This document shows, one piece after another, positions 19,768 through 44,342 of a DNA stretch of 44,342 nt. A model generated the notes under the pieces. It did not search any database, was not told the DNA's origin, and worked only from the letters and a program-made list of their open reading frames with translations. The stretch's first letter is position 1, and every line of letters begins with the position of its first letter. The position numbers and the translations under genes were made by a program. Source of the stretch: Paramacrobiotus metropolitanus (taxonomy: Eukaryota > Tardigrada > Eutardigrada > Parachela > Macrobiotidae). The stretch covers positions 1 to 44,342 of the forward strand of contig NW_026570558.1 of assembly GCF_019649055.1 (NCBI RefSeq), in the 5' to 3' direction.

Positions 19768-19768
19768 G

Positions 19769-19811: not shown

Positions 19812-19820
19812 CCCGTTAAG

Positions 19821-20382
19821 GCGTTCACGCCGGTTAAGGCTCCATGAACAATCTTTACTCTTCCACGCCTGTAATGCTCAATCGGTAGGCACTCGTACTC
19901 TCAAACTGTAACAGAAGAACTATGGTGGAAATAAGACGAACGAATCAGGAACACAGGAACTCAGGAATCCCTCAGGAACACGCTAACCACAACTTCCGGT
20001 CGTAAGTCCTGTGAGGATCGGCAAGAGCTAGGACGATTGTGTCACGAGCAAACCTGTATACTAAGCGATAATCCGGGAACAATTATGCACTTCAGTAGGA
20101 ACAAGTATTGCTGTCTCTTTATCCAATTCACATCACAGTTCACAACACTAGGAAATCGTAATTAGATAGCAGTCTCAGAAGCAAATCTCAGACTACTCCT
20201 CCGATATTAGGCATCACAAGAACTTATATAGACTTTGCGTTATGACATCATATACATCGCTAGTAAAAGAGAACAGCAAATCACAGCATTGATTGACTAG
20301 ATTATCCGTTATGTTGCAGGTGGAAGGCGGACAGTCAGCATCCGTACGTACATCCGGCGTATGATCCTACTCCCATACGTCA
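19821..20382 (-). repeat. 3' LTR of the giant element (inverted relative to 19227)
   Basis: Read on the minus strand it begins TGACGTATGGG at 20382, preceded by the G-run GTTCGTGGGGG, a polypurine tract in the correct place. It runs about 562 bases and stops about 12 bases short of the full LTR end, where it meets the pol fragment. It forms a long hairpin with 19227-19740. Confidence 0.75.
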
Positions 20383-22043
20383 CCCCCACGAACGATGCTT
20401 GGCCGTGCCAAAATAAACAACCCATCCCGCAACATCCCAGTGCGATTGTGCACTTCCATCCATCCTGATCCCGATCCACCGCACAATCCACGCGTCCATC
20501 CGATGCCCAATGTGACTGTACGCCGCGATTCCCAGAGGGTTAGTGTGGAATCCTTGGCGAAGAGGCATCCGGAAGTCCACGGGTTTGGCAGGGCGGAGGT
20601 CCAAGGATCCAGGAAGGCGAACTATGAATTACTGACATGGTGCCGCTTGAGTTTAGATGGTGTTTTATATACAGTATACGGCATAAAGCTTTATTAATTG
20701 TGAAACTAAAATCTTAAAATGTGATTATGTGCAACTCTGTAGAACTATGCATTAAACGAACGAGACCGCGATAACCAACAACCAGTAGTATTCTTACGAA
20801 TTCTCGAGTACTACAAATCACATCGTATAGCAACAAATGTCAACAACAACAAACAAGCTACCAATAAGCGTATCAAAATGGTGAGTGCAATCTACTAGCG
20901 CACTGATACAATAATGTAAACCAGTAAAAGGCAACAAAATCAAAAGTCAAGGCAATGCAACAAAGCCAGTAATAATATGAGATCAAAGAAAGCAACCAAG
21001 GTCAATGTCAAAGGTGAGTCAAGGTTACTAGTCTGAGATTTGCTTCTGAGACTGCTATCTAATTACGATTTCCTAGTGTTGTGAACTGTGATGTGAATTG
21101 GATAAAGAGACAGCAATACTTGTTCCTACTGAAGTGCATAATTGTTCCCGGATTATCGCTTAGTATACAGGTTTGCTCGTGACACAATCGTCCTAGCTCT
21201 TGCCGATCCTCACAGGACTTACGACCGGAAGTTGTGGTTAGCGTGTTCCTGAGGGATTCCTGAGTTCCTGTGTTCCTGATTCGTTCGTCTTATTTCCACC
21301 ATAGTTCTTCTGTTACAGTTTGAGAGTACGAGTGCCTACCGATTGAGCATTACAGGCGTGGAAGAGTAAAGATTGTTCATGGAGCCTTAACCGGCGTGAA
21401 CGCTTATACACGACATGGCGCCCACCGGGGGGCTTCATACTGGGCTGAAGAGCAGTCTCGAGACGCGAGGATTACCCGTTAAGGCGTTCACGCCGGTTAA
21501 GGCTCCATGAACATCTTTACTCTTCCACGCCTGTAATGCTCAATCGGTAGGCACTCGTACTCTCAAACTGTAACAGAAGAACTATGGTGGAAATAAGACG
21601 AACGAATCAGGAACACAGGAACTCAGGAATCCTCAGGAACACGCTAACCACAACTTCCGGTCGTAGTCCTGTGAGGATCGGCAAGAGCTAGGACGATTGT
21701 GTCACGAGCAAACCTGTATACTAAGCGATAATCCGGGAACAATTATGCACTTCAGTAGGAACAAGTATTGCTGTCTCTTTATCCAATTCACATCACAGTT
21801 CACAACACTAGGAAATCGTAATTAGATAGCAGTCTCAGAAGCAAATCTCAGACTACTCCCTCCGATATTAGGCATCACAAGAACTTATATAGACTTTGCG
21901 TTATGACATCATATACATCGCTAGTAAAAGAGAACAGCAAATCACAGCATTGATTGACTAGATTATCCGTTATGTTGCAGGTGGAAGGCGGACAGTCAGC
22001 ATCCGTACGTACATCCGGCGTATGATCCTACTCCCATACGTCA
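20383..22043. repeat. 1661-base tandem unit: 3' UTR plus paired LTRs
   Basis: The 3' UTR copy (20383-21030) is followed by a truncated plus-oriented LTR from 21031, the PBS and pol-fragment spacer (about 21404-21483) and a minus-oriented LTR (21484-22043). The next unit repeats it with a constant 1661-base offset (20383 against 22044). Open frames inside these copies are identical between units and carry no domain, so they are not called as genes. Confidence 0.85.
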
Positions 22044-23297
22044 CCCCCACGAACGATGCTTGGCCGTGCCAAAATAAACAACCCATCCCGCAACATCCCA
22101 GTGCGATTGTGCACTTCCATCCATCCTGATCCCGATCCACCGCACAATCCACGCGTCCATCCGATGCCCAATGTGACTGTACGCCGCGATTCCCAGAGGG
22201 TTAGTGTGGAATCCTTGGCGAAGAGGCATCCGGAAGTCCACGGGTTTGGCAGGGCGGAGGTCCAAGGATCCAGGAAGGCGAACTATGAATTACTGACATG
22301 GTGCCGCTTGAGTTTAGATGGTGTTTTATATACAGTATACGGCATAAAGCTTTATTAATTGTGAAACTAAAATCTTAAAATGTGATTATGTGCAACTCTG
22401 TAGAACTATGCATTAAACGAACGAGACCGCGATAACCAACAACCAGTAGTATTCTTACGAATTCTCGAGTACTACAAATCACATCGTATAGCAACAAATG
22501 TCAACAACAACAAACAAGCTACCAATAAGCGTATCAAAATGGTGAGTGCAATCTACTAGCGCACTGATACAATAATGTAAACCAGTAAAAGGCAACAAAA
22601 TCAAAAGTCAAGGCAATGCAACAAAGCCAGTAATAATATGAGATCAAAGAAAGCAACCAAGGTCAATGTCAAAGGTGAGTCAAGGTTACTAGTCTGAGAT
22701 TTGCTTCTGAGACTGCTATCTAATTACGATTTCCTAGTGTTGTGAACTGTGATGTGAATTGGATAAAGAGACAGCAATACTTGTTCCTACTGAAGTGCAT
22801 AATTGTTCCCGGATTATCGCTTAGTATACAGGTTTGCTCGTGACACAATCGTCCTAGCTCTTGCCGATCCTCACAGAACTTACGACCGGAAGTTGTGGTT
22901 AGCGTGTTCCTGAGGGATTGAGTAGTCTGATGGTGTTTTATATACGGTATACGGCATAAAGCTTTATTAATTGTGAAACTAAAATCTTAAAATGTGATTA
23001 TGTGCAACTCTGTAGAACTATGCATTAAACGAACGAGACCGCGATAACCAACCAGTAGTATTCTTACGAATTCTCGAGTACTACAAATCACATCGTATAG
23101 CAACAAATGTCAACAACAACAAACAAGCTACCAATAAGCGTATCAAAATGGTGAGTGCAATCTACTAGCGCACTGATACAATAATGTAAACCAGTAAAAG
23201 GCAACAAAATCAATAGTCAAGGCAATGCAACAAAGCCAGTAATAATATGAGATCAAAGAAAGCAACCAAGGTCAATGTCAAAGGTGAGTCAAGGTTA
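22044..23297. repeat. second and partial third tandem unit
   Basis: 3' UTR copy 2 covers 22044-22691. A plus-oriented LTR piece follows (22692 to about 22920). A third, 5'-truncated 3' UTR copy (about 22928-23297) then continues directly into the stop codon of the first accessory ORF. The junction GGTTACTA|GTCTGAG seen at 21030 recurs at 22691, so both units descend from one event. Confidence 0.8.
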
Positions 23298-24085
23298 CTT
23301 GCCAGCACTGGGAGCCAATGAAAAGAGACCAGTAATGCCAGAGCCAGACGCTGCAGCGGCATCCAAACGGCGAGAAACTTCCGCAGCCATCTGACGTCGA
23401 CGATCAGCATCCAATTCCCGCTGCTGCTGTTGGGCCAAATAGCCAGGCACAAAATTATGCTCGGCAGAACCAACAGGACCGGAAGGTGCAGACGGCGCAC
23501 GTGGGCGATCAGCCGGAGAACGGTCGCGGGCATCGCGGACAATCGGTACTTCAGGTAGCGGCAAAACGTTTGGTGGCAAACCGGGAAATTCAGCGTTAGC
23601 CGGGGCCTGCACAGGTGGAATGACAGCCGGAGGAACGACAACGGCATTCAAGGCTGGTGGGCCATGTAGATTGACAGCAGGGTTGACACCATTGGGCTCA
23701 CCTGCAGCCACATTTCCGTTGCCTTGGACCGGATTCGGTGCATTCGCTGCTTGGTTGCCGGGTCGTCAACCTCCATGTCTGCGGCGGCAGCTTCCACTGG
23801 AGCAACTGGGTGAGCGTCTCCATCAGGTACTTCAATAACTTCCGGTGCGCCCAGAGGTCGGCCATTACGACGCCAATGATCGTTTCCACGACGCAAGTTA
23901 TTGTCTCCAAAATTCCTATGATTTCCTCGGCCGTACGGACGAAAGTTGCCACGGTAAGCACCACGGGCTCCACCCCTTCCTCGGTGATTATAACCGGCAT
24001 TATACTGTTGTTGCTGGTTGGAGGATGAATGAAAAATAGCGTCAACCAGCTTATCAAAAGCTCGGTTAGGATCAATAGGCGGCAT
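23298..24085 (-). CDS. accessory protein 1: RGG- and proline-rich (one frame break)
   Basis: Starting at ATG 24085, the N-terminal third has a poly-Gln patch and an RGG/RG box (HRGRGGARGAYRGN and further RG, RN repeats), typical of disordered RNA-binding regions. An Ala/Pro-rich acidic stretch follows. Around 23765 coding appears to move to another frame, continuing with Pro/Val-rich sequence, an RDARDRSPADRPRAPSAPSG segment and a final helical part to the stop at about 23296. The frame change could also be an intron. Placement just before the 3' UTR and the nucleic-acid-binding composition suggest an RNA-packaging or chaperone role (inference). Confidence 0.55.
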
Positions 24086-24607: not shown

Positions 24608-24613
24608 GCAAAT

Positions 24614-25446
24614 TCACAGTTCATCAGAATGTGGCTGCTGGTTACCGTAGCCTACTGGTTCCGCAAATTCAGGTGAGTCTTCCCGAGCAACAGCGGCAAC
24701 AGGTGGCACAGCAGGGACAACTGGCTGCAGAGATGGCAGCGGATCAACATCCATTTTCTCAAAATCAGATCCATCGTCATCATCGCAATCGACGACCATA
24801 TCTGCGTTCTCGTCAGCTTCGACATCAGCATTCTGCTCAGGGATAACACAGCCGAAGGATCCTCACGATCTTCACCATCATCCGACACGGAAACTTCACT
24901 TGGCGCAGAAGACGAGGACGGTGAAACCTCCTTGTACTTGCGCTTTTGCCCACGAGTGCGAAAATTATATGGTCCAGCAGAAGTTGAAGCCTGCGGTTCA
25001 GCACTTCCCACAGCCGGAGATACATTGGCCGTGTGACGAGCAACTGCATCCGCTTTCTGATGCTTGTCCAGAACTTCAAACAGACGAACAAAAACTGGGT
25101 TCAAATATAAATACTGGCGACGCAATTCAAAGGCGATAGGCGTGGGCAGGGACCGTGTAATGGTACACAAATCAAATCGATTAATTAGAGCTCCGTTGGT
25201 AAACAAAAACCGCGATAAGTATAAACGAGGATAATATCGATGAAATCTGTTTAATCCGGAAAAATAAGCCTCGGTAATCACTAACTGATGCTCACCCCGG
25301 TTATCCGCCACAGCCATTCGTGGAAATACTCCGGAATGCGCTCGTTTGCGAGCCGTCTGCTTGGTCTTGAAGACCGGCCGTGGTGCATCCGGGTTGTAGG
25401 GCGCGTATAAAATTCCGCCTTTACGCAGATGCTCTTCATCTGACAT
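24614..25446 (-). CDS. accessory protein 2: YNPD-family paralog, acidic tail
   Basis: From ATG 25446 (MSDEEHLRKGG) the protein has ILYAPYNPDAPRP, a basic TARKRAHSG patch and then a helical block (YLSRFLFTNGALINRFDLC, FELRRQYLYLN, VRLFEVLD). It resembles the ORF at 32859-33707 in motif order: YNPD, an RF region, a long helix with ELRR, then VEFL/VRLF and LD. A nuclear-localisation-like RTRGQKRKYKE follows. The frame breaks near 24840; in the second frame an Asp/Glu-rich tail (DCDDDDGSDFEKMDVD) runs to the stop at 24614. I do not recognise the family. Confidence 0.55.
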
Positions 25447-25608
25447 AACAAGAAGCAACCATTAATACCAGCGGAGCAAAGAATTATCCCCACTAACTGT
25501 ATCACAGATATGCGACGAGGACACAAACCAAATATCCGTTAATTTCACACAAAAGCGCCAATCAGATTCGCAACAATATATATTGGAGTTTTAAGTCGAT
25601 AAAACCGA

Positions 25609-26181
25609 CTAGAAATAACGGAACCTGAGAACTATCGTTATAATCAAGCAAAGGGAACCAAAACAGCAAGGAAATACGGCGGTACCTCGCTTCGCTCGCA
25701 CCGACGGAGTCTCAGATGGTGAAGGCTCCTCTTCAGTCAAGTCAGGAGTACCCAACTGTCTCTCCGCCTGCGTCTGCGGTTTCCTAGGTGATGGCTGGCG
25801 AATCTCAACGTCGGGGCTGGTAGGAAATGATCCCCGACGGGCACGGCGGCGAACCACAGCAGCATTGCGTCGTAAGATTGTACGTCGCCGCTGTGCATCA
25901 TATCGGCGCTGCAAAGCATTGACTACTGCATCTGCCCAACTCGTTGAAGGTTGCTGAGCCTCTGCTGCACTCACCGATCCCGATGACCCAGAAGATTGCG
26001 CAGAAAACACTGGTTGCGCGGAAGTACGACGAGAGACGCGAGATCGAGTGACACGCGACGAAGAACGGGCTTCATCGCTGTCCGGAGAGTAACCAAAACT
26101 TAATCCCGCTGTTGCTCGACTCGGGCGCGGTGTACGCGATGCAGTCTTCCTCGCAGTTGCTTTCTTTGCGGGAGGCGACAT
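25609..26181 (-). CDS. accessory protein 3: Arg/Ser-rich basic protein
   Basis: The start is taken at ATG 26181 (MSPPAKKATARK), a strongly basic N-terminus. The middle is Ser/Arg-rich with many RR pairs (RRTILRRN, VRRRARRG). An acidic patch (DLTEEEPSPSE) and a hydrophobic end (CLIITIVLRFRYF) follow. The end could be a tail anchor, or intron sequence read through, because GTACCG at about 25681 could act as a donor. The composition suggests nucleic-acid binding or condensation. It shares an M-x-PPA-x-K start with the small ORF at 30669-30851. Confidence 0.5.
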   Translation of the reverse strand: MSPPAKKATARKTASRTPRPSRATAGLSFGYSPDSDEARSSSRVTRSRVSRRTSAQPVFSAQSSGSSGSVSAAEAQQPSTSWADAVVNALQRRYDAQRRRTILRRNAAVVRRRARRGSFPTSPDVEIRQPSPRKPQTQAERQLGTPDLTEEEPSPSETPSVRAKRGTAVFPCCFGSLCLIITIVLRFRYF

Positions 26182-26238
26182 TCTCAAAACGTGAAAGAGA
26201 CAAATCGTAAGAAGACGGGGACAATAAAAATAAAACAA

Positions 26239-26789: not shown

Positions 26790-27577
26790 ATGTCAGGACA
26801 GCCTATAGGACCAACGGGAGAGCCTCTACCATCGCCGGAAGCAGACGCGATTGCCCACTATGAATACTGGAAGGGACGAACTCGCGAATCAGTTCAGTTT
26901 GCCATGGCAGAGCCTCTACAGCCAAACGAAACCATCCGAGACCGTCGACAATTGGCGATGCATACGGCAGCCCACGCGTGCATTCTTGAAGCTGACATTA
27001 CAGGGTATTATGTGGACATGTCATCAATCAAGAAATTCGTTGCGGAAATGCACGATGATTTCACGGAAGAACGAGTGGATTTCTTCCTCGGCGACGCGAT
27101 TAACGCAGGAATCTTGCTCAAGAAGATGAGCCGCGATGGACGTTTCGTGCTCGAGGTGGCCGAGGAAGTGAAAAGTAACCGCGATCCAGAGACGAAAGTA
27201 ATCGACACAACTAGCAAGTTTCGTCGGATGATTCGCGTAATCCTCTACCACGGTCGATACGCCATGTCACGCACCGAAATCCAACACTGGATCTGTACGT
27301 TCGACGTACAGTTGCAGGACGTGGACTACTGGCTGGAGCGCGGGCTGCGCCAACTGGTTAACCAGAAACATGTCGTCGTCGTCTACGGAAATCTTTTCGT
27401 GGACAGCTGCATCGACCTATGGCTACGAAGCATTCGCGGTTGCTGTCTCTGCACCACTCTGGCCCAGACCATCAGTGAGTATTTCTGTGTTTTTCGAAAC
27501 AGCATCCTTGATACTTACACTTTAAAATAGCACAGCAACGCCGCCTACTGGAAATCACGTTGTCTGCCGTAATTTAA
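26790..27577 (+). CDS. plus-strand accessory gene 4: spliced, winged-helix-like
   Basis: ATG 26790 opens a 685-base exon ending at A|GTGAGT (27474). A 56-base intron (27475-27530, ending AAATAG) leads to a 47-base exon with TAA at 27575-27577, giving 243 residues. Two tandem helix-helix-strand units (IKKFVAEMH...GILLKKMSRDGRFVLEV, and IQHWICTFD...QLVNQKHVVVVYGNLFV) look like winged-helix DNA-binding folds, by pattern only. It lies opposite to gag-pol, so it cannot be read from the genomic RNA of the element; it needs its own promoter or is a captured host gene. Confidence 0.6.
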
Positions 27578-27606
27578 CCAAAGTGATTTAAATTGTAGAT
27601 ATCAAA

Positions 27607-28164
27607 ATGGGCACCATGAAGGTTATCGTAAACGGCAAGGAGACCAAACAGCATGTCGCCGATTGCAGCTTTGGTTACGTGGGACAAGACGGGAATCTGG
27701 TTGTCGATGGCATCATGGAGCGGCTGGACGCAATCGAGCCCGAGAAGAACAACACCACCAACGTAAATCTGGTAATCCGGGCTAGCAAAGACGGACGCAT
27801 TGAGAGAGAACCAATTATCACGCTCACTCAACTAAAAGCTATGGGCGGCCGTCCTAAATATGTCCCCCGATCAAAGAATACGGATACCGAAAAGAAAGGC
27901 CAGAAGACCAAGGAGAAGGCCGAAAAGCCTGACAATGAAGTGAGCACTGCAAAACCGGATGCTATTAAAAAGCCCGACGCAATCGACAAATTACTAGAAC
28001 AAGTTGAACGAGAGAAGGATATTATGGATAACTGCAAGGCGCTGGTAAACACGCTGAAGGCTCGAGCGACGATGGATGCTAAACATATCGCGTATATCCG
28101 TGAGGCTCTAGAACAGCGTCTTGCCAACTTAAAAACTGCGAAGGAGAACTTGGATCTGGATTAA
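27607..28164 (+). CDS. plus-strand accessory gene 5: lysine-rich coiled-coil protein
   Basis: ATG 27607 starts 29 bases after the stop of the spliced gene, so both may sit on one transcript. A splice-acceptor-like AAATTGTAG (27591-27599) lies just before it, which would allow alternative or trans-splicing. The 185-residue protein has a beta-rich N-terminus (MKVIVNGKE, DGNLVVDGIM), a Lys/Glu linker (KKGQKTKEKAEKP) and a C-terminal coiled coil (IDKLLEQVEREKDIMDN through EALEQRLANL). Family not recognised. Confidence 0.6.
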   Translation: MGTMKVIVNGKETKQHVADCSFGYVGQDGNLVVDGIMERLDAIEPEKNNTTNVNLVIRASKDGRIEREPIITLTQLKAMGGRPKYVPRSKNTDTEKKGQKTKEKAEKPDNEVSTAKPDAIKKPDAIDKLLEQVEREKDIMDNCKALVNTLKARATMDAKHIAYIREALEQRLANLKTAKENLDLD

Positions 28165-28880
28165 ACAGCGGTTGTTACATATCTGATAATTTGTTCTAAA
28201 ATTCGGCCGACTGTTATTTCTTCTGTTTTAATCTTTTGATCTCGTTGAATTAATCTCGTCAATGTTTTCACAGGCAATTCTCATAATTCCGTACAGATTC
28301 TCATATAGTCATTAATTTTGCTGGTCGGACAGATCTTAAATCGAGTTTTTAATTTGGATTTATGCAGCATTTGAATAACCGCAATAAAATCGGTGTAACA
28401 GAATGCGCAACCGTAACGACAGTGAATTCCAGTGCAGTGTGAGAAATTAACAGCTTAAAATCAATTATCACACCTGCGCCCGTGAATCAAATGCTAAAAA
28501 CAATTTTATTATTCCATCCGGGGAATAAAGTAACAGGAATCACCACAGAAAGGAAAAAAGAATGGAGAGAAACTCTTAACACTCGCAAAATCTGTATTCA
28601 CGCAGGATTGAACCTTGCATCTAGGTGGACAACTAAATCCTGCTCTTGCCCATACGCTAGCATGGCTATACCACATTTTACTTTTAATTTGGCAATCACC
28701 AAAGGCGCTGTACTACGAAAATTCACAATATAGTGAAAATTCACCGCTGCAGCAGCTGATAAATTTAAGATTTCACCACCATCATGAACACAGAATTCGC
28801 GCCGACAACGGAAATATTTCCACAAGAGTGACAGTAAAAATATAGAAACAAAAAAGTAGGATGTCAGAAAATGCAATTTT
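28165..28880. other. non-coding stretch
   Basis: About 700 AT-rich bases downstream of the plus-strand cassette, leading into the tRNA-like array. No supported gene. Confidence 0.4.
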
Positions 28881-32068: not shown

Positions 32069-32280
32069 GATTTCCGAGTTAGAGAGCCTGCACAGTTCTC
32101 TGATAGGAATGTACGGAGCATCAAGCGAACGCCAAAATGCACAAACTCACAAATGCGCTCCTGGTTCGCCAAAACGTAGGTAACAGAATCAGAAAATTTC
32201 ACAAACTTACGGCGCTTTTGCTCATCTTGCTCGGCACAAATCATACGCCCGCGCTCTGATTTATAAAATTCCATCTCCAT
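32059..32280 (-). CDS. accessory protein 8: small ORF with a PP1-docking-like motif
   Basis: ATG 32280 opens a 73-residue frame containing KRRKFVKFSDSVTYVL. The KFVKF core fits the RVxF docking motif for protein phosphatase 1, and the following S-D-S-V resembles the region after the motif in PPP1R15/GADD34-type regulators. No second hallmark (the Trp-containing actin/eIF2alpha segment) is evident. The frame may continue into the next ORF after a break. Function is speculative. Confidence 0.4.
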   Translation of the reverse strand: MEMEFYKSERGRMICAEQDEQKRRKFVKFSDSVTYVLANQERICEFVHFGVRLMLRTFLSENCAGSLTRKSWL

Positions 32281-34050: not shown

Positions 34051-34330
34051 TTAATCCAGATTACATAAGGTACAAACTCGGCAAAATTTCGCTAAATCAG
34101 ACTTCATTTCAGGCCAGAAAAACCGAAGGTTTTTGTACAAGTAGTCATATGGCGAAATGGCACTGCCATACTTGTGAAGCAACCGACGGTGTACTGATTC
34201 AACTAGTAGTTTACGCCATTGAAACGGGATCAAAATTTTAGGGATTCTTTTCTGGATATCCTCTCTTTCGCCGTAATGGCAGATAATGCCTTTTACTTTC
34301 AGAACTAGAGGAGATGCCAGGCCGCGTATG
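34051..34330 (-). CDS. stand-alone integrase-type zinc-binding module (third copy)
   Basis: The frame opens just inside the end of pol, in the -1 frame relative to it, and ends at 34051. It reads like the N-terminal integrase zinc domain: GIICHYGE, then IPFQWRKLLVESVHRRLLH, FFWPEM, and CRVCTLC, giving the His-His-Cys-Cys ligands. No catalytic DDE core follows; the frame stops right after the last Cys pair. It could be reached by a -1 shift from pol, from a separate start (ATT/TTG only; no ATG near the front), or it may be a relic. Confidence 0.65.
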
Positions 34331-36650
34331 CAGATTCCTCAAGAGTGCAATCTCCATCAACAACGGCGTCCCACAACATCATGTCACTGCACTCCATCTG
34401 GCGATACCTCCAGAATTCCTGCTTGTCAAGAGCGTCATCGGATATTACGCCTTGTGGCCAGAACTGCTCAATTGGGCGTGCCCAAGCCGGGACTGGAAGA
34501 ATTCTGTCTTCTACAATAGGCAAGGCAGTTTTTGCTGGCTGTAACGGCCCAATCTCCATTGCGTTACAGGTAATAGACGAAGTATCATTGGCCACCGGGG
34601 CAACTAGTTCAGATTGGCCCCCTCCCGGCTGGGATACATTCGGAATAGCCGGTTCTCTATCATTTGTGGCCATGCGCTTTTTAGCATCAGCCGACGGGTC
34701 TCTTTTACGCTTTTTGTCGTTGCTCTGATTCACAAGTCTTTCCACAGGTTTCACCACACGCCCGGAGCGGGTTTTAAGCAGCGGGACCGCTTCCATCTGG
34801 TTATCCAGATATTCAGCGTACTCAGCATCAAGGCGCGACGATGCTGAATCAACGGATGGAATCACCGGCGGCGGCGCGGGCGCCTCAACTAATTCATCGG
34901 GGCATTCCTTCTCCACACAATCGAGCAACTTCGGTAAGTGCTCGTCTTGCAGAATAGTATCGACGTCGCGGAAATTATACGGCTTCAAACGGCTGACATG
35001 TACAGTGTCAGTTTTGACATTTCCGCGCCGGTTACTCTTTACTACATAGTGCACTGGCCCTGACTGACGCACAATTTCCCATCCAGCAGTCCAACGGGGC
35101 ATAAGGGATGGATTCTTCCCCACTTTCCGATGAAGTACGTACACCAGAACCTGATCTCCCGGTTTAAACGATACATGTGAAATATTTGCATCATATCTAA
35201 TTTTATCTTTAAGCTTATGACGAAACTCTTCAGCATTCACTAAATCCAAGGCCTCACCAAGGCCGCGCTGCATCTGCTGTACATATACATGAGCAGGAAT
35301 TACAAAATCCTCTTCGAATGGCAGGAAGTTATTTATCGGTAAGCGCATCTCGGTGCCGTGCATCATGAAGAATGGTGAGCGGCCCGTTCGCTCCACAACC
35401 TTACTGTTAAATGCCGCACAAAGTGCTGGGAGGAATATATCCCAGTCGCTTTGCTGCTCGTTCACATACTTCGCTAGCGCCTTTTTGATTTCCCCTACTC
35501 GTTTTTCGACGAGTCCATTGCCCTGCTGGTGGCCTGACGCCGTCGGCGCGTGAGCAACACCCGCGAGAGCGAGAAGCTCCCGAAACATTTCTGACATGAA
35601 ATTACTGCCGCGGTCTGAGGTGATATGTACAGGCATGCCAAAGACTGTTAGAATGCGGCGATAAAAGAACAACGCCAATGTGGCAGCATCATTTCTCTCA
35701 ACTGCCTCCGCGACTATATATTTGCTCCCGTAATCTACTGCAATAATTATGTTTTTGTTTCCAGATTCCGTCATTGGGAGGGCCGGAGCAACGTCGATTG
35801 CCCAAACTAACCGAGGAGGAACCGTGGGATTGGACTGGAGAGCACCGGCCGGTGCCGTAGCAAGAGGATTTTGTGCAAGGCACGCCGGACAAGAGGCACA
35901 ATAACTTTTAACAGACTCAAACATACGAGGCCAATAAAAATATTTGTACATCCTTTTATAGGTGGCCAGGACGCCCAAGTGTGCTGCTAACGGGGAATCA
36001 TGGTTATCCTGAAGGAACTGAAGCCGCCAGTGAACAGGTACATACATGCAATAATAGATCTTCCGGTTTAATTCGAACTTATAATAAACAACGCCCTGTT
36101 TCACTACAAATTTATTTAGGTGTAATTTCTCATGCTCTGACATCTTTTCCTTTCTATTTTCTAGGAGCAGCCGCCATCTGACAATTCGCGCATCTCGAGA
36201 CTGCTCTTCAGCCCAGTATGAAGCCTTATCGTCAGTAATTAACTTCTGCACCTTGTCCTCATCAAAAGCTTTCATGTCCTCCTCTGGGATGGCTTTAACT
36301 TCGGCCGACATCATCTCGAAGCGGATATCCACATAGTCTCTCTCCAGGATAGCGAAACAACACTCGATCATCGCGGCATCACCGGCGAAGGGGTGGGTTT
36401 GCCTATAGTCAAACTCGATGTCTGAGTCGTCAGAGTCGGGTTCCGGTTGCTCTCCTGGGTTTCTACTCAAGGCGTCAGCAATGACGTTCTCTTTGCCAGG
36501 TATGTGAACAGGCTTAGTATTAAATTGCTGGATATACAACGCCCAGCGCCCAAGGCGGCCAGCGGCATCACGCATATTATTTAAAAACACTAACGCTTGG
36601 TGATCTGTTTGTACTTCGAACTGATAATCAGACAAATAATGCTTCCATTT
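34305..36650 (-). CDS. pol, RNase H C-terminus and integrase
   Basis: One open frame of about 776 residues continues the RNase H domain (VQTDHQALVFL) and then encodes integrase. The zinc module is HRH-type with YFYWPRM and CASCPAC (about 35880-36000). The catalytic core shows D in AIDVAP (about 35800), D in ITSDRGSNF (about 35615) and E in NGLVEKRVGE (about 35505), so all three DDE residues are present. FKPGDQVLVY and VHVSRLKPYNF mark the GPY/F-like C-terminal part. The final 200 residues are a Pro-rich, charged tail. It joins the upstream RNase H frame after a break at an A-run near 36650. Confidence 0.85.
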   Translation of the reverse strand, partial: KWKHYLSDYQFEVQTDHQALVFLNNMRDAAGRLGRWALYIQQFNTKPVHIPGKENVIADALSRNPGEQPEPDSDDSDIEFDYRQTHPFAGDAAMIECCFAILERDYVDIRFEMMSAEVKAIPEEDMKAFDEDKVQKLITDDKASYWAEEQSRDARIVRWRLLLENRKEKMSEHEKLHLNKFVVKQGVVYYKFELNRKIYYCMYVPVHWRLQFLQDNHDSPLAAHLGVLATYKRMYKYFYWPRMFESVKSYCASCPACLAQNPLATAPAGALQSNPTVPPRLVWAIDVAPALPMTESGNKNIIIAVDYGSKYIVAEAVERNDAATLALFFYRRILTVFGMPVHITSDRGSNFMSEMFRELLALAGVAHAPTASGHQQGNGLVEKRVGEIKKALAKYVNEQQSDWDIFLPALCAAFNSKVVERTGRSPFFMMHGTEMRLPINNFLPFEEDFVIPAHVYVQQMQRGLGEALDLVNAEEFRHKLKDKIRYDANISHVSFKPGDQVLVYVLHRKVGKNPSLMPRWTAGWEIVRQSGPVHYVVKSNRRGNVKTDTVHVSRLKPYNFRDVDTILQDEHLPKLLDCVEKECPDELVEAPAPPPVIPSVDSASSRLDAEYAEYLDNQMEAVPLLKTRSGRVVKPVERLVNQSNDKKRKRDPSADAKKRMATNDREPAIPNVSQPGGGQSELVAPVANDTSSITCNAMEIGPLQPAKTALPIVEDRILPVPAWARPIEQFWPQGVISDDALDKQEFWRYRQMECSDMMLWDAVVDGDCTLEESAYAAWHLL

Positions 36651-37278
36651 TTAAGAGCACAAATAACTGCATAGGCCTCAAGCTCAGTAGGGAAGTAGAG
36701 CCTTTTCTGCGTTTCAGTCAACTTGCGGCTTAAGTACGCAATAGGACGCCAATTCGTGGGCACATCCGTCGGTTTATCCTTGGGACATTGCATAAGGACT
36801 GCACCAACAGCAATAGTACTTGCATCGACAATAACACGCGACAAAGCCTCCGGGTCATAACGAGCCAAGACCGGCGCTGTCACCAAGGCCTCCTTCAACT
36901 GTTCCACAGACCTGCACTGATCCGTTCCCCATTCAAAGGTAACTTTTTTGGGAATCAACTTTTGAAGCGGCTCAGCGATCTCTTGAAAATTCTTAATAAA
37001 TTGGCGGTAATATCCTACCATACCTAGGAAACGCAGTATATCTTTTTTGTCTTTAATAGGGCCGAATTCCTTAACCGCCTGGATCTTCTCTGGATCAGTA
37101 CTGATACCGAACTGGTCAACCGTGTGACCCAGGAACGTTATTGAATTTACAAATAATTCTGTCTTTTCAGGATTAATGGTCCAGCCGCATTCCTGGAGCC
37201 GCAAGAAGAGCTCCTGTAAGTCTCGCACATGATCAGCCAGGTTTTTACTGAAGACAATAATGTCATCAATAAAAGACC
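36590..37278 (-). CDS. pol, RT thumb and RNase H N-terminus
   Basis: This frame begins after the RT catalytic box with IDDIIVFS, then FLGHTVDQFGIS and FLGMVGYYRQFI, the usual RT palm-thumb and connection landmarks. VIVDASTIAVGAVL and YLSRKLTETQKRLYFPTELE follow, with the first acidic residues of RNase H. The frame leaves the correct register near 36650, where coding continues in the next frame. Confidence 0.8.
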
Positions 37279-39899
37279 AACACGTTCCTCCACTTCATGT
37301 TCGCAAGCGTCAAATCCATGGCGCGCTGGAAAGCCGAAGGCGCGTCCTTCATTCCAAAAGGTAAGACTTTGTATTGAAACGTGAACTCTTCGCCAACCAT
37401 TGTTGTTTTACACCGGTCTTCCGGTTTGATTTTAATTTGCCAAAATCCACTTTTTAAATCGATCTTGCTAAAAACCGTAGCTTTATCGAGGGCATTTAAT
37501 ATGTCGTCAACTCTGGGAAGCGGGTAACTGCTGCCCATTAATCTTTCGTTAAGCTTACGGAAATCCACGGTTAAACGCCGGGATTTATCCTTCTTCTTCA
37601 CTATGCAAATGGGACTGCCCCATGCCGAATTTGTTGGCTCAATTATACCGTCTTTAATCATTTCCTGTGTTTTAGCTTGGAGCCATTTTCGATCCTCGAA
37701 CGACGTGCGATACGGAGGGGTTCTAACCGGCAAACTTGTGCCTGTATCCACAGAGTGCTCATAAATGGTACAGCATCCCACAGGACGCGCTTTAGTCGGT
37801 AAGACCGATTTTGCCTGATAAAATATAGCCTTTAATTCCTCCTTGCTTGGACAAATGTCTCCGACTTTAATTTTAGCGAACGTTTCTTCGGTTTCAGGAT
37901 CAACGACACTGACGGCGGGTGGCGGCAACTGCATCGCCACACATTCATTTATTTTCTCCGGTGTCGAGACACCTTCTTCCACACTGGGAATGCCACCAAT
38001 TGCCTCTTGACAATTCTCCTGGAACTCCGGAGAGTCCATTTGGTACACTGCGTCCACAAGCGCGACTTCGCCAAGGTTGGTTTCTTCGTTTAAAACCAGC
38101 GGTTTGTCAGAAACGTTAACAACGCAGACTCGGCAATTACCATACTCATTTAGCGTTAAGACGCCATCGAGTAATACGGCGTTTTTATTTGACTCTGGTA
38201 TTTTTCCTTCGTAGAGAAACGGCTGGGTGTACAGGTATTCGTCTTGAAATTCCATGAACTGTTCGTCAGACATCGACGTCGTTGCACGAATAATTCCCTG
38301 TGAATGGGGCTGAATTATAACCGGCGAAGCTGGAAACAGCTCCATTTTAAAACAGTCAATTGGACCGGGTTCAGGCTCGAAGCGGTAAATATCGTGTTCT
38401 ACCGAATTAACTTCAACCTGTGCTTGTGCCTGTTTCAGATGGGCGTCCCTGTACGCCAGCTCGATGACATCCTTCGAATACACGCATGCCGGGATATCAG
38501 TGGACTCACGGACGTCCTGAGATCGTTTGGGCAAATTTTTAGCTGTCGGTTGTTGTAGCACCGGTGCCGGCTGCACCGTCTCAGCTGACATTTGGCTTGC
38601 CGCCTCTCTTTCTGCATATTCCCGCCGAATTCTGCGGCTGTAACTGGACTTTTTACGTCTAGGAGAATTCCTTCCCGAACCTTCCGGTGATGGTTCGTAG
38701 TTTCCCACGGTGGGTTGTACTGGATTAACGGCTGCAGATTCGGTCAATGCCTTCTTTTTCTGTATTTCATTCCAGATTTCCCACTGTTCGTTAATATTAA
38801 TTTTTGTCGCAACATCGTAGGTCGCTCTGACATCCTCCGAAACGAACTCAGACGGCTTCGGCGGCGGTGAGTTACTAATCATTTGAGAATTTATTTCTCT
38901 TTGCTTCTCCGCCTGTTTATCTTCGTAGGAGACCGGACACGGGCCAATATTAATGGGTTTCATACCATCTGCAGGGACAAAGCTACCGTTTTCAAATTCA
39001 CCTGCTGGTGCCGGGTTATCCACAGAAAAGGTAACTTTACGTTTTCCTGTAGCTTTCTGTGCGTTTAATTGCTCCGTGCGTTTCAAGGTTTCAAAATGCC
39101 GGCGATCATTAATCGAGTTTCGACACACGTCGCAGTTCTTCTCGTACCGTTCAATTTCTATTATACAGTCCGGCCAGTAAAATAATTTCACAAAGTACGG
39201 ATATAGCTTTTCATGCCGGCCATACGCTTGCTTATGAATTAAAATTTCGTGGAAGCAGGCAATTAATTTCTGTCGCCATTGGTGCGGCACATAAATTCTT
39301 GGGCAAGCACCAGAATGATCAGGTACCCTACATAAAATCCCTTCGCATATTACGAATCTGTTAATCTCATACTTGGTAAAATTCGTATTAGCGTGCGACG
39401 GTTTCTTGTACATTTTGTACCACATCCGGCTATCAACACACTGCTGTTGAGTTTCGCGCCAGAACTGCGGATCACGGAATCTTTTTTCTGAAGGAAACAG
39501 CTGTTTATCCTGTGGCCTATCCATCGGCGTCATCCACTTCTTTAACTCTGGATTGCGTGCCATGTAGGACGGATAATCGTGGACGTCATCGACTTCTCTG
39601 CGGTCGCATTCAACAGGTATGACATTGAGCAATTTATTATCTATACTCAGACATTCCACTGACTTTGATGATTTATCTAACACGCCCATATACAGGTATT
39701 TCGCCGCAGGATGCTGCTTCAGCACTGCGTCTACCGAGGAAATCTGAATGGGAAGTTGCAAAGGATCGTCACCCCCACGAACTTGACTGGAGCCGGAATT
39801 AGGCGCGGGACTAACCGATGTCGGAGACGAGGTACTCGGACTGCCTGCCGGTGACGGCTGAACAACTTTTTCCTTTTTAATTGGCGGCTGGGAGGACAC
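37266..39899 (-). CDS. pol, pre-RT zinc module, spacer domain and RT N-terminal part
   Basis: About 877 residues are open. The N-terminus is Pro/Ser-rich. At about 39100-39350 an integrase-like zinc module appears ahead of the RT: ICEGILCRVPD, YVPHQWRQKLIACFHEILIH, FYWPD, NCDVC. A long disordered linker follows, then a small beta domain (IIQPHSQGIIRA, VLLDGVLTLNEYGNCRVCV) like that often found between protease and RT. The RT begins with PYRTSFEDRKWLQ and shows WGSPICIVKKKD, LTVDFRKLNE, FSKIDLKSGFWQI and FQYKVLPFGMKDAPSAFQ. The frame ends exactly at the YxDD box (about 37270). No ATG is in frame at the start, so it is read as part of a polyprotein. Confidence 0.85.
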   Translation of the reverse strand: MSSQPPIKKEKVVQPSPAGSPSTSSPTSVSPAPNSGSSQVRGGDDPLQLPIQISSVDAVLKQHPAAKYLYMGVLDKSSKSVECLSIDNKLLNVIPVECDRREVDDVHDYPSYMARNPELKKWMTPMDRPQDKQLFPSEKRFRDPQFWRETQQQCVDSRMWYKMYKKPSHANTNFTKYEINRFVICEGILCRVPDHSGACPRIYVPHQWRQKLIACFHEILIHKQAYGRHEKLYPYFVKLFYWPDCIIEIERYEKNCDVCRNSINDRRHFETLKRTEQLNAQKATGKRKVTFSVDNPAPAGEFENGSFVPADGMKPINIGPCPVSYEDKQAEKQREINSQMISNSPPPKPSEFVSEDVRATYDVATKININEQWEIWNEIQKKKALTESAAVNPVQPTVGNYEPSPEGSGRNSPRRKKSSYSRRIRREYAEREAASQMSAETVQPAPVLQQPTAKNLPKRSQDVRESTDIPACVYSKDVIELAYRDAHLKQAQAQVEVNSVEHDIYRFEPEPGPIDCFKMELFPASPVIIQPHSQGIIRATTSMSDEQFMEFQDEYLYTQPFLYEGKIPESNKNAVLLDGVLTLNEYGNCRVCVVNVSDKPLVLNEETNLGEVALVDAVYQMDSPEFQENCQEAIGGIPSVEEGVSTPEKINECVAMQLPPPAVSVVDPETEETFAKIKVGDICPSKEELKAIFYQAKSVLPTKARPVGCCTIYEHSVDTGTSLPVRTPPYRTSFEDRKWLQAKTQEMIKDGIIEPTNSAWGSPICIVKKKDKSRRLTVDFRKLNERLMGSSYPLPRVDDILNALDKATVFSKIDLKSGFWQIKIKPEDRCKTTMVGEEFTFQYKVLPFGMKDAPSAFQRAMDLTLANMKWRNVLVFY

Positions 39900-40014
39900 C
39901 TGTTCTCTCCCCGCGAACTTGACTGCATACTATTCACAATTATTTACCACCTCCCCACGAACTTGACTTGGTTCATACTATTTACAATTGTTTCACCTCC
40001 CCCCACGAACTTGA
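39767..40014 (-). repeat. polypurine-tract-like repeats inside pol
   Basis: GTCAAGTTCGTGGGG or a close variant occurs four times on the minus strand (about 39998-40014, 39952-39967, 39908-39923, 39767-39786). The last includes GTTCGTGGGGGTGACG, 16 bases identical to the polypurine tract/LTR junction at 20378-20393. Two of the units form a roughly 46-base tandem repeat. Confidence 0.75.
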
Positions 40015-40440: not shown

Positions 40441-40479
40441 GCGAATGACATCCGACATCAGGTGAGTTTCGCGACGGAA

Positions 40480-40870
40480 AAATGCCGGAGCATTAGGCTG
40501 TCTACGCGAGACGCCAAGTCATCGTGTTCATATCTAGTATAAAAGGCTTTGTAGCTAAAAGTCTAGACCTAAAACCACGTGGTCCCTATCAAAGTGGAAC
40601 TCACAAGCATAGCATGCTCAAAAGCCATCCCAAATTCATGGATGGTGACCACCCGACAACGGCTCGATCAGCTGTCTTCCTTGGTACGCTGTATGTACAA
40701 CCCTGCCTTTAATGTGATCAGGACAGCGATGTATATTTAATTTTAAATCTTTAGCCATTTTTGAGACATAACGGAAATGCTAGAACCCGGTATCCAGCAT
40801 AGTCTTCACTTTCTGATAATTTATGTCAGATAACAGAATACCAAGCCTGGGCATCCAGCGTCGGCAACAG
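40480..40870 (-). pseudogene. retropepsin-type aspartic protease, broken
   Basis: Coding reads RLGILLSDINYQKVKTMLDTG, the start of a retroviral-type protease with its active-site DTG at about 40785-40796. Immediately after DTG the frame is lost and a stop appears; recognisable coding (VSKMAKDLKLNIHRCPDHI) continues in the shifted register with further stops. Compared with the zinc-knuckle frame upstream it lies in the -1 frame. Protease function is not intact in this copy as sequenced. Confidence 0.7.
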
Positions 40871-41312
40871 GCACGTGATCCGCTAGAGGGTACTGCGAAA
40901 AGTCCTGGACTTCCATTTTGTTACTGGGGCGTCGGAGAGAAGACAAACCAGCCGGTAAGTCCAACTCCATCATGTTAATCTGCTGCTGCGGGTTATTGTA
41001 GCGTGCCAATAATTCAGCGGATGGCTCATACTGGCGAAGTACAAATTGATTCGTACAACCAGCTGCAGGATGAAGACCATGACAGCGGAAGCAAATCTCG
41101 ACTCCGCGATTTGTTCGCCATTTATCCTTCAGGATATTTCGTTCATCAAACGGAGGCTGACTACCGGCCTGCTGATTTTGCCGGTAATTCTGGTTATTTT
41201 GCTGACGATTATTGTTGTTGTTATAGCCACTTCGTCCGCGATAATTATTATTATTATTCGGTAATTTCACGATTATTACCGCCATCATAATTATTGTTAT
41301 TCGCAGGGCCAT
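40821..41312 (-). CDS. gag, nucleocapsid region
   Basis: An Asn/Gln/Tyr-rich low-complexity stretch with RGRSG leads to CFRCHGLHPAAGC. This is a variant zinc knuckle, C-x2-C-x3-H-x4-C, one residue shorter than the canonical CCHC. A short linker (QQINMMELDLPAG) follows before the protease. Retroviral-type knuckles bind genomic RNA for packaging. Confidence 0.7.
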   Translation of the reverse strand: MALRITIIMMAVIIVKLPNNNNNYRGRSGYNNNNNRQQNNQNYRQNQQAGSQPPFDERNILKDKWRTNRGVEICFRCHGLHPAAGCTNQFVLRQYEPSAELLARYNNPQQQINMMELDLPAGLSSLRRPSNKMEVQDFSQYPLADHVPVADAGCPGLVFCYLT

Positions 41313-42270
41313 TCTGTTGGTACTGCTGGATCAAAATTCTGTACCGGTTGTTGGAATTGCGGCTGCATAACCGGCATCATTGGATTCATCATTTGAACTG
41401 GGACAGGCATAGAAGCCTGCATAGGAATTGGTTGAGGAAAGTCTGCGCAAATTGCACCGGTGTTGTTGCTCAACATATTGTATGTTGGAACACCGGACAG
41501 GGACAAACTGCGGCTGGGGACATTCAGGACAGGCTGCACAGGAACCACCAATTCTGCGGCTGAGGAATCACTGTCTCCGTGTACGAACGTGAATATCCTC
41601 CGCGATTGTTGCTTCCGCGGCCTCCCCGGTTCGAATAATAATTTCCTCTCTGCGACGAGCCACCGCGGCCGCCTCGATTTTCATAATTCGATTATTATTA
41701 TTATTATTGCCGGCTTCTCGGTTCTGAAGGCTTTTTCTGAGTTGATTCAGGTGTCTTCTTATCTTTATTCATGCGCTTCCAGTTTTCGCATTCCTGTAAC
41801 TTCTTCTCAAATTCCGCATAATTTTAGGTGCCGCATTATAAATTTCACGGAACCATGCCGGCCGATGTTCCTGTACGCCATCAAGGAGTGCTTCCACCTG
41901 CTCTTCGTCAGATGTTTTTAGTTCCTCAAACCATGGGAGAAACTATCCAGGTAGGCACGGACTGGTTCATAAAATTCTAATTTGCGATTATTCATTTTCG
42001 GCGAATATCGGCTTTAGACAGCGAACCGTTAAAATGCTCCACAATAGCCGGCTTAAAGAAATCTGACCACGATTTGCCTTTATTGTCCTTCCCAGAATTT
42101 TTCAAACCATTGAAAAGACGGACCGGTGAATGCACCGATTACTCTGCGACACGTTGTTTCATCATTCCAGTTATTCGTGGCTCTGCATTGTTCGACGTTC
42201 ATGAGCCATCTTTGAATTTTTCTGGATGAGCGTCATCAAAGCAAGTAGCTTCATGCCACCTACCGTTTTA
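41297..42270 (-). pseudogene. gag middle (capsid-like) region, heavily frame-broken
   Basis: Coding fragments alternate among all three minus frames. They include LLDGVQEHRPAWFREIYNA (near 41850-41900), a second basic, Asn-rich stretch (41640-41720), and a Met/Pro/Gln-rich segment (MQASMPVPVQMMNPMMPVMQ, 41340-41420). At least five register changes occur in under 1 kb. The position between the coiled coil and the nucleocapsid suggests capsid. Confidence 0.55.
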
Positions 42271-44342
42271 TCGCTGTCTTTTTCCACAATTTTCGCTAAA
42301 GCTCAACAACGCTTTCTTGTGTAAGCGTCGTTCTATCCGAAATTTGGGTCTGTTTAGTAGCCATTCCTCCAGCTGAGGATTTCTAGACATGGACTCATTA
42401 CTGGTCGTGCTACTGGGGCGACGGTGTTCATCCTCCATTAGGGCATCATCCATCAGTTCATTTTCTGTATCAGAACTGTCTCTATTTTCTGTTCCTCGCA
42501 TCTGGCGACTAGATTCGTCAGCTGTTCTTTTCAGAATTTGCTGGCGTAAGTCTGTTGAGCCATTTTTCCTCTGTTTGGCAGGTGCCGTTTCCTTGGAATT
42601 TGACTTTCTGACGATGAACGCAGCATGGTCTGACCCTCCGAGAATTCGACTCGTGATTCCTGCCTAGGCCTGCGCAAGATGCCAGCTGGATTACTGCCAG
42701 TAGCTAAGGGCTGATCCACGTATAGACGAGAAATTTTGGGGATTAAATGGTGTAAGCGGGAGGACGTAATACGTCTCCTGTTGCTACCGGCGCTTCCTTT
42801 GAAAGTATCCTTCACCGCCGCCAAGAACAGCATCTGTATTTCGAAGCCGACGAAGTTCGTCAAACGCTTGCTTTAGATCCACTTCCATCTTGGTAAGTTG
42901 ATCTTGTTTTTCATGCCATTCCCTTCGGCATTGCGCATTTTCTTCATACAGCCGATTACACCTTTCAGACTTTTCATATGCGTCAGCCTGTGCTGTATTT
43001 TTCGCTTGAATCGCGTTCTCACAATTATCACATCTTTTATCCTTTTTCGAATCTTTTAATTCCTTTTGGGCCTTTTGAACATTCTCTCGCTCTGTAGTCA
43101 ACAGACCCTGCAATCTCTCAATTTCCTTTTGGGACGCATCATCCTTTTCCTTGGGAATATGCATCGGGCCGACTGAAGACTTATTGTTCAGTTGAACTCT
43201 CGCTTTGTGTGAGTTCACGCTGTAGAGAGTCTTCCATCTTTAGCCCGTTTCTTTTCATCTTCCAAATCTTTGGTAAGTTTGTGACCAGGTTCTGCGCATC
43301 CGTCAAATTTTTTATTAGTTAATTTATGCGCATCTTTCTCAGAATTACAATCTTTCTGAGCTTTCGAGAGCTTTTGGTTCAAATCAGTTATTTGTTTCGT
43401 TAAATCCGGTGCTGGTTGTGCACTGAGGCCATCAATCGTAGCTTTCGCGTTTGAAAGATCCTCTCTGGGCATCTTCCAACTGTTTTTCAAGATTACGATT
43501 CGTGTCTTTTAAAGTATCGCGCTCATCTTGTATTGCGTTAAATGCGGCCTCCGCATTTCTGTTGGCTTGTCTTAGTCATGTGCAAATTATCATTCGCAAT
43601 GCGTATTTCGTTGGCCAATCTGTCATTTTCTATTTGTTCATTTTCAAATTTAATACGCATTTCATTGAAATCTTTGAAATTTCAATTTTCGTTTCGTTCC
43701 GCATCTACACGAGCGTCTAAAGACATAGTATTACCCATTTCATCTACTTTTGTTTTTGTAGATGCGATGAGCGTGCGGAGACTTTGGATCAATACGGGCA
43801 TAGTTTGCCGGACTATCAAGCCCACGTCCTGGTCAGTTTCTGCCGCAGCTAACTGCTCATCGACTTCCCTAGCTTGGTAAGGAAGTCCTCATCAGGTTGT
43901 TCAAAATCCTTTTCTGACACAAAACTGTGTAATTTTAGCTGTGCCGGGTGGAATGTCATTGTTCCACCTCGAATGCTTTTACTTGCTCTTGTTTCTGATC
44001 CCTCAGAATATATCCGCTTTATCCGCAGCCGACAACGCTATCAGTTATTGTCCGACTGGGACGACTGAGGTTCTGTTTGGCTCTCGGCCACGCTTGGAGT
44101 TTCGATATGGGTTCATCCAATATCGCACCGGATGCCTGGGCTGGAATTTTCTCCTTGGCACCGCGCGTGACGCGCTCATTTGCTGCCTGTTTTTTTTGGA
44201 GTTTTTCCGTTGCTTTTGACGCTGTGATGCGGCTTAAGGCCGCCTCTCTTCGTCTATTCAAATCTTCCGTATATTCTGGCAGCCACCTGTTTGCATCCTG
44301 CAAGGCAGCTTTAAACTGCTCATCAGTAATGTCAGGTAAGCT
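42268..44342 (-). pseudogene. gag N-terminal coiled-coil region, runs off the right edge
   Basis: Successive minus frames (44342-44019, about 43880-43520, 43490-43215, 43218-42784, 42863-42531, 42501-42268) each encode helical, Lys/Glu/Gln-rich sequence. Examples are QITDLNQKLSKAQKDCNSE and KEIERLQGLLTTERENVQ; this forms a long coiled coil with a CDNCENA pair. The final part has the acidic, Ser-rich DSSDTENELMDDALMEDE. The register changes about every 300-400 bases. A long coiled-coil N-terminus is unusual for gag. Coding is open to the window edge, so the start and the 5' LTR lie beyond it. Confidence 0.6.

Follow-up and report, generated by a model that had tools for sequence, protein, structure and literature searches.

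Retrotransposons have traditionally been held to be limited in size to about 10 kb by transcription, reverse transcriptase (RT) processivity and packaging, and giant size has precedents in Ogre and Burro (PMC6431247). Burro/GYPSM1 of planarians is an animal Gypsy-like element whose internal region exceeds 20 kb, with additional coding capacity and a polyprotein of great length, and the Terminons of rotifers are giant, Penelope-like animal retroelements with many open reading frames (ORFs) (PMC6431247). Retand/Grande elements of plants have a long region between pol and the 3' long terminal repeat (LTR), in which lies an antisense gene that is conserved and may bind DNA (PMC11963269, PMC7264820), and TRIMp3 elements (Cassandra, Helenus and Ajax) are LTR elements with RNA polymerase III (Pol III) promoter sequences, the animal Helenus displaying 4-bp target duplications (PMC10886601). 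Here, we analysed contig C338 (NW_026570558.1) of the tardigrade Paramacrobiotus metropolitanus (genome of 169.8 Mb in 533 contigs) over its whole length of 44,342 nt, in the following called the window, whose minus strand holds a truncated, frame-broken Ty3/Gypsy element. No paper on this giant element was found in the open-licence PMC literature; Hypsibius and Ramazzottius are tabulated in a study of tardigrade repeats, the main text of which does not mention Paramacrobiotus (PMC11071193).

The element in the window is a degraded copy of a recently active giant Ty3/Gypsy lineage in Paramacrobiotus. Its giant architecture, its reverse transcription and the selection on its genes can be read from the copies, and, judged by sequence likeness, much of its accessory module has been preserved in three or more diverged families. 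Altogether, we regard it as highly probable that a giant mobile Ty3/Gypsy architecture is combined here with a gene module that serves the element itself.

Copies, gene linkage and selection

The window DNA was cut into 2-kb pieces and compared with five other copies (C52, C55A, C55B, C78 and C50), in all of which the coding region is flanked by two direct LTRs (ends TG...CA) and the same block of about 11 kb lies between integrase and the 3' LTR. LTR-to-LTR lengths were about 23.8, 23.5, 24.2 and 23.4 kb for C52, C55A, C55B and C78, respectively, while C50 spans 31.4 kb because part of its A–C region is doubled (A being present twice) and about 4 kb are inserted. Based on the ORFs common to the copies, the sense order of the module is A, B, C, array, D (antisense), EF and G (Table 1). 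The LTR comprises about 574 nt (TGACGTA...ACACGACA), with TATATAAG, read as the TATA of the LTR, common to six aligned LTRs. The 5' and 3' LTRs of the five elements matched at 574/574, 568/570, 571/575, 572/573 and 572/572 aligned positions (99.3–100%), whereas LTR-region matches between copies amounted to 91–97%, so that the insertions appear young and the family diverse. Clean 4-bp target duplications were present in four of the five copies (ATAG, GGGG, TAAG and ACCG). The initial annotation had proposed a giant element with its own gene set, whose further copies should carry both LTRs and the same accessory ORFs; the two-LTR copies support this, as do the co-linear loci and the purifying selection described below. 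Copies without the block were also sought, and no integrase–LTR arrangement lacking it was seen, LTR positions having been examined in five copies.

A search with integrase resulted in 64 matches at 58 loci (58 scored of 1,600 first-look candidates). Gene A lies downstream on the same strand at 55 of these loci, D on the opposite strand at 51 and F (the second part of EF) at 50, and all three follow in order at 49/58. Loci C201 and C364 had none of A, D and F in range, and at least two of the nine failing loci (C11:4895 and C364) lie less than 8 kb from the contig start. Conversely, 69 places of D1 (the first part of D) had A or integrase in range at 64 and not at five; these places were hand-picked from 120 matches, family III rows, deeper rows and second fragments being left out.

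Selection was estimated as dN/dS by the Nei-Gojobori method between family-I copies in which the frame was found, which favours intact genes. Values were 0.07–0.14 for A (six pairs), 0.33 for B (one pair), 0.05–0.11 for D1 (six pairs), 0.03–0.19 for D2 (ten pairs), 0.13–0.30 each for E and F (three pairs each) and 0.09–0.23 for G (six pairs), next to 0.05 for integrase (one pair); several dS values exceed 1, near saturation, and E includes about 25 codons that are possibly intron. The accessory genes are thus under purifying selection (dN/dS 0.03–0.33). Since dozens of loci are co-linear and dN/dS is far below 1, the block is beyond chance.

As the initial annotation had read them, RT, RNase H and integrase follow in order on the minus strand of the window, where the frames are broken (that of RT at about 37270). 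The gag start, leader and 5' LTR are missing at the right end because the window is the entire contig. In C52, a single 3,517-aa frame holds gag, CCHC, protease (PF13975, E=4.5e-7 in the Pfam scan), an extra H2C2-like segment, RT and integrase; frames of more than 3,200 aa occur at six other places, one with a stop inside the match. Protease, RT, RNase H and integrase follow in the Ty3/Gypsy order, and Ty3 is the best PDB relative for RNase H and integrase, an assignment made from these matches. Compared with protein databases, integrase found only distant Gypsy proteins among those scored, the best by score with 30% over 72%. No MATH, BIR, BCL2 or dUTPase-like domains were detected in Pfam scans of the C52 gag-protease, the window pieces from H2C2 to integrase and the scanned accessory proteins. 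An integrase-type H2C2 motif precedes RT at window positions 39100–39300 (minus strand) and in piece L031 (about 2413–2583), far from integrase's own H2C2 (PF17921, E 0.003–0.006, below the Pfam cut-off).

Table 1. Features of the giant element in the window
Feature	Position	Strand	Evidence and remarks
Gag region	42268..44342	-	several frames in window; gag core and an N-terminal coiled-coil part; in C52, PF03732 E=0.03
Nucleocapsid region, CCHC-like knuckle CFRCHGLHPAAGC	40821..41680	-	motif read by eye
Pol part 1: H2C2-like zinc-binding segment, then RT start	37266..39929	-	PF00078 E=6e-17; PF17921 E=0.0064
RT C-terminal part and RNase H	36590..37294	-	best PDB match Ty3 RT 4ol8, E=3e-25
RNase H end and integrase (H2C2, rve, C-terminal domain)	34305..36650	-	best PDB match Ty3 Gag-Pol 7q5b, E=4e-28
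Accessory gene A, 282 aa	32859..33707	-	ORF common to copies; selection
Accessory gene B	31493..32280	-	two overlapping frames in window; 226 aa in C78
Accessory ORF C, 60 aa	30669..30851	-	88–91% in C52, C55A, C55B
Array, six Pol III-like units (A box, B box, T-run)	28587..30126	-	motif scan
Array B boxes	30073-30083, 29811-29821, 29599-29609, 29103-29113, 28891-28901, 28604-28614	-	motif scan
Gene D, antisense	26790..28164	+	exon 1 26790-27474; intron 27475-27598 (GTGAGT...TTGTAG); exon 2 27599-28164
Accessory gene EF	24652..26181	-	predicted intron 25685-25440 between exon 1 (26181-25686) and exon 2 (from 25439); in window, frameshift towards the end of exon 2
Accessory gene G, RG-rich	23295..24085	-	264–268 aa in other copies; frameshifted in window
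LTR copy 2, in 1,661-bp tandem duplication of 3' end	21484..22044	-	alignment
LTR copy 1, minus 12 end bases	19821..20383	-	alignment with other copies
18-nt copy of host tRNA-Lys(CTT) 3' end, beside inverted LTR, then pol fragment	19753..19770	+	same at 21416-21433
Inverted LTR piece	19227..19752	+	alignment; further inverted pieces 21029-21415, 22690-22919

Gene D, the Pol III-like array and the other accessory genes

The initial annotation had described an accessory region of about 11 kb with minus-strand ORFs, a plus-strand pair and an array. All of these are present, and the plus-strand pair (D1 and D2) turned out to be the two exons of one gene of about 410 aa, found in the RefSeq models LOC129598761 and LOC129596679, which use the same intron. 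Its acceptor was found in 8/8 copies and its donor in 7/8. In families I, II and III, the intron is of phase 1 and lies at the same or nearly the same place; exon 2 starts with N-x-x-M in families I and II, and in family III a methionine stands one residue after the junction. As D is antisense, its intron would not be lost when the sense RNA is reverse transcribed, and its conservation across families fits the survival of an intron placed opposite to the genomic RNA. Identity of D to the window protein is 33% in family II and 24% in family III.

The predicted structure of D shows two winged-helix segments (H-H-H-strand-strand fold), mostly with a predicted local distance difference test (pLDDT) of 70–90, and a low-confidence second half with a long helix. 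The structural matches were of a generic winged-helix kind. Almost all of them, such as cullin WHB, linker histone and Z-alpha, fall on the second segment, and SAMD1 on the first. Foldseek ranks 2, 6 and 7 were Pol III subunits, proteins with tandem winged helices (E 0.085–0.23, not significant). A single weak PHROG match (E=0.0037, RusA-like family) falls into the low-confidence part of D, and TRP28 (PF04195) was not reported for D of families I, II and III in the Pfam scans. Based on the model, D is a predicted nucleic-acid-binding tandem winged-helix protein; assigning any one function to D or G would be doubtful.

Between C and D, the element harbors the array. Units were scanned for as an A box with at most two mismatches, a B box with at most one and a subsequent TTTTT, with 200 shuffles per region. 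This revealed six sense-strand units in the window, five in C78, four in C52, six in C55A, five in C55B and two each in families II and III, and no antisense units in any of these seven regions; shuffles gave means of 0.03–0.07 and at most two. C50 has six units. The arrangement is that of Pol III type 2 (A box, B box, T-run), the T-run starting 31–45 nt after the B box in family-I units. No units were found on either strand of the other 42 kb of the window, including 19000–26500 with its LTRs. Two occurred outside arrays in 24 fetched pieces scanned (L034, sense; L035, antisense), and one lies in L044 on the array side of a family II D. Between the window and C78, C52 and C55A, unit positions matched at 532/573, 549/577 and 527/567 and the rest of the array region at 1373/1596, 1288/1478 and 1222/1442, respectively, so units are more conserved than their surroundings (Fisher p 9.9e-6, 2.6e-8 and 2.9e-7, neighbouring positions and the three comparisons not being independent).

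The earlier description of this array as tRNA-like holds for the promoter motif; no tRNA gene was called by ARAGORN at default or by Rfam. Relaxed ARAGORN settings resulted in many low-scoring, unspecific calls on both strands. A known RNA family was rejected as well, the two weak Rfam matches lying below the gathering score; Rfam ASdes (E=0.21) overlaps the array on the other strand. From these motifs, transcription of the array by Pol III appears almost as probable as its absence.

Among the remaining genes, conserved E ends with AAGCGAG/GTA in five of the six copies scanned and conserved F starts with AG/ATGAnGA in five of six, the slash marking the predicted junction. Donor and acceptor are both present in the window, C52, C55A and C50, 213–251 nt apart, and by these signals EF looks like a spliced sense gene. 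To persist, such a sense intron would have to stay in part of the transcripts, as happens in retroviruses. RG dipeptides are frequent in G. For the accessory proteins scanned, neither Pfam nor PHROG gave a convincing family. A short motif (ELRR..., NRFDL/KYNRF) is common to A and F; on this weak likeness the two may be paralogues, and the family III protein at the F position also matches A.

Priming, rearranged 3' end and related families

At 6/6 5' LTR junctions (five elements and the duplicated C50 piece), the LTR is followed by the primer binding site (PBS) TGGCGCCCACCGG and then TGTCT. The 3' end of host tRNA-Lys(CTT), CCGGTGGGCG, fits this site, and two host tRNA-Lys(CTT) genes end in CCCCCCGGTGGGCG; by this sequence match, the RT primer is host tRNA-Lys(CTT). 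The array as primer source was rejected, since the PBS fits the host tRNA and the only GGTGGG of the window array, the one array considered here, lies outside the units.

The initial annotation had placed a polypurine tract and a 562-base LTR at the 3' end. The tract before the 3' LTR is only GTGGGGG, and the 562 nt correspond to the LTR minus 12 end bases, which are replaced in the window. Instead of a normal LTR, the window shows a rearranged tangle at 19227–23300 with direct and inverted LTR pieces and a tandem 1,661-bp repeat. Inverted LTR ends are joined at 19753 and 21416 to TGGCGCCCACCGGGGGGC, the exact 18-nt complement of tRNA-Lys(CTT); a pol fragment comes next, with GGC shared where the two meet. 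During retroviral replication, plus-strand strong-stop DNA copies 18 tRNA bases before strand transfer. The 18-nt copies match this process; the joins have the look of failed transfers that the genome has preserved. The tangle thus looks like the outcome of reverse-transcription accidents (failed plus-strand transfer) or like a partly artefactual assembly; an assembly error could account for the 1,661-bp repeat and would not supply tRNA bases. In C50, two LTRs with identical outer flanks lie 7.35 kb apart (L024 3337–3897 and L025 687–1247), which may be a local duplication or an assembly repeat. Neighbouring giant-element copies in the same orientation were seen on C55 (560243–610498), C76 (460–508 kb) and C23 (1395–1430 kb), which suggests preferred regions; two same-strand LTRs on C55 were rejected as ends of one element, being the 3' LTRs of two neighbouring elements.

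Apart from family I, family II (C13, C9 and others) displays RTs 82–83% like that of C52, with relatives of A (35%), D1 (33–39%), F (44–47%) and G (38%). Family III comprises 15 near-identical D copies plus G; in C292, C347 and C80, an RT 67–73% like that of C52 lies 10.5–10.7 kb from D in the expected orientation. A genome-wide RNase H profile search revealed none near family III blocks of known place among the 150 matches listed. By sequence, C12, whose RT has 68% and whose D has 24% to family III, appears to represent a fourth family.

Searches outside the species covered D, A and integrase; the proteins compared may leave other tardigrade genomes unrepresented. Among about 8,000 candidates scored in each case out of 5.8 billion proteins, D found only two RefSeq proteins, both of P. 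metropolitanus, and A found nothing. In IMG/VR, 37 (D) and 57 (A) pattern matches were obtained, none confirmed by tblastn. As D and A have no relatives found outside the species, the term cargo, used in the initial annotation, is doubtful, and the genes look like the element's own. To liken the organisation to that of a small viral genome, as the initial annotation did, is a fair analogy; an envelope gene was not recognised.

Outside the element, the window contains three look-alike ORFs with a GYLQD.DGD.-F.DF motif (1432–2088, 8015–8752 and 14736–15611), probably a host gene family, with kinase- and Kelch-looking ORFs (by eye) beside them at 2966–4805. The ORF at 17891–18412 resembles, by eye, the C-terminal end of a non-LTR reverse transcriptase.

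Competing readings and comparison with known systems

For a module serving the element, the 5' LTR would drive both the genomic RNA and sense mRNAs that are partly spliced, much as a complex retrovirus does. D would have its own promoter, and the array would make short Pol III RNAs. D with its predicted winged helices, the RG-rich G and the small RNAs might act together in the nucleus or germline and keep the 23-kb RNA made, exported, packaged or unsilenced. Both the production of Pol III RNAs from the array and an action of the block against host control are inferred here. A wider proposal is that of a retroelement organised like a complex DNA virus, with its own Pol III small-RNA genes, at least one spliced antisense regulator (D, with tandem winged helices) and spliced sense regulators jointly blocking host small-RNA silencing or controlling its own RNA, in its boldest form with D working with the Pol III machinery on the array; this we offer as a tentative and rather unlikely idea.

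Several observations weigh against parts of our interpretation. C55A lacks a clean target duplication (AAAT vs AATC). For D, the donor pattern was missed in C78, the RefSeq models may be purely predicted, and the structure model is mediocre (mean pLDDT 56, predicted template modelling score 0.36); Foldseek gave no match reaching E 0.001 against PDB and viral models, and sequence comparison with PDB no significant relative (best E 0.1). The structure model of A (pLDDT 38) is unusable. The EF intron patterns were not matched in C78 and C55B, and C52 keeps an open EF frame across the proposed intron. If that intron is retained, an unspliced membrane isoform of E is possible from the sequence, because the read-through tail (window 25609–25685, minus strand) is hydrophobic in the window, C52, C55A and C55B, and alike in the window and C55A. 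The array has only two units each in families II and III, and the units show no cloverleaf and fold no better than shuffles (z -0.67 to +1.63 for five of the six, compared with -3.08 for host tRNA-Lys). The pol linkage of family III rests on three of about 15 copies (104 scored of 1,477 RT candidates), and 1.1 kb upstream of the C101 family III block hold no ORF of more than 73 aa.

The tail of E also bears on the reading as an endogenous, errantivirus-like retrovirus with an envelope or membrane protein among the unnamed proteins, for which a complex gene set with predicted spliced genes and the mildly hydrophobic start of B in C78 (Kyte-Doolittle (KD) value 1.37) would speak too. With a KD of 2.32 in the window, E was the only one of 11 proteins above 1.8. 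That tail lies past the predicted splice donor, it differs in length and sequence in C52 and C55B, and no Pfam envelope match was obtained in the window, C52 and the accessory proteins scanned; we consider this reading improbable. Still less credible is a chance composite, i.e., a normal Gypsy element of 6–8 kb that trapped host DNA or another element before its 3' LTR and was amplified with extra ORFs of no role. In its favour, no outside relative was found for D and A and no convincing Pfam or PHROG family for the accessory proteins scanned, so that an origin from captured DNA is not traceable; the purifying selection across families largely refutes it, and A adjoins integrase at nearly all scored loci, while related genes in related order, with the D intron, recur in families whose D proteins are only 24–33% alike. 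Hence, such a composite is extremely unlikely.

Two further readings concern the array. Its units could go back to tRNA-derived SINEs or tRNA pseudogenes inserted into the element, as their A box, B box and T-run resemble SINE heads and tRNA-like LTR elements are known (PMC10886601). Against this, one unit searched genome-wide had all 40 scored places (53 candidates) at elements, within 8 kb of a D match, and all array units in the six family-I copies are on the sense strand, which makes such insertions very unlikely. The array might also be a TFIIIC-binding boundary that makes no RNA; it sits between the converging sense genes A–C and antisense D, and the five units mentioned do not fold like tRNA. 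A bare binding site would not need a T-run 31–45 nt after the B box in each family-I unit, nor an inter-box stretch and trailer about as conserved as the boxes, and we hold a boundary to be possible and on the unlikely side. The reading as a giant element with a module of its own is retained.

Size alone and, in plants, antisense accessory ORFs are already precedented; what stands out most as new is the antisense gene with its intron, together with the Pol III-like array. The family is a recently active animal one with an internal region of 22–23 kb. Its module, which is under selection, comprises six or more genes on both strands, and related forms of it persist in diverged families of one species. 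It suggests that such elements can maintain small virus-like gene sets. It also provides a natural setting in which to ask how closely a retroelement can come to the gene repertoire of a virus, by what means antisense genes preserve their introns in an element copied through RNA, and if Pol III RNAs are put to use by retroelements. For tardigrade annotation, two RefSeq 'uncharacterized proteins' are identified as gene D.

MHV68 TMERs, adenovirus VA and EBV EBER are viral Pol III RNAs, in MHV68 with several units in a row. The array resembles these virus-encoded Pol III units; here, the units are predicted, do not fold like tRNA and are carried by a retroelement. Terminons are not known to have LTRs, a protease or a Ty3-type integrase. 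They furthermore differ in RT class and telomeric location (PMC6431247). TRIMp3 elements are short and non-autonomous with the small-RNA sequence in the LTR (PMC10886601), whereas the tardigrade element has an internal array and its own gag-pol. In Retand elements, the region from pol to the 3' LTR measures 2.9–6.6 kb and usually encodes TRP28, and the word 'intron' does not occur in the main text of either source (PMC11963269, PMC7264820); the tardigrade region has about 11 kb and six or more genes, and its antisense ORF revealed a winged-helix model and an intron, with no TRP28 reported. In Burro, the extra domains lie mostly inside a 4,873-aa polyprotein (MATH, BIR, BCL2, env-like) (PMC6431247), whereas the extras of the tardigrade element are separate genes after integrase, on both strands and without convincing Pfam relatives, together with a Pol III-like array.

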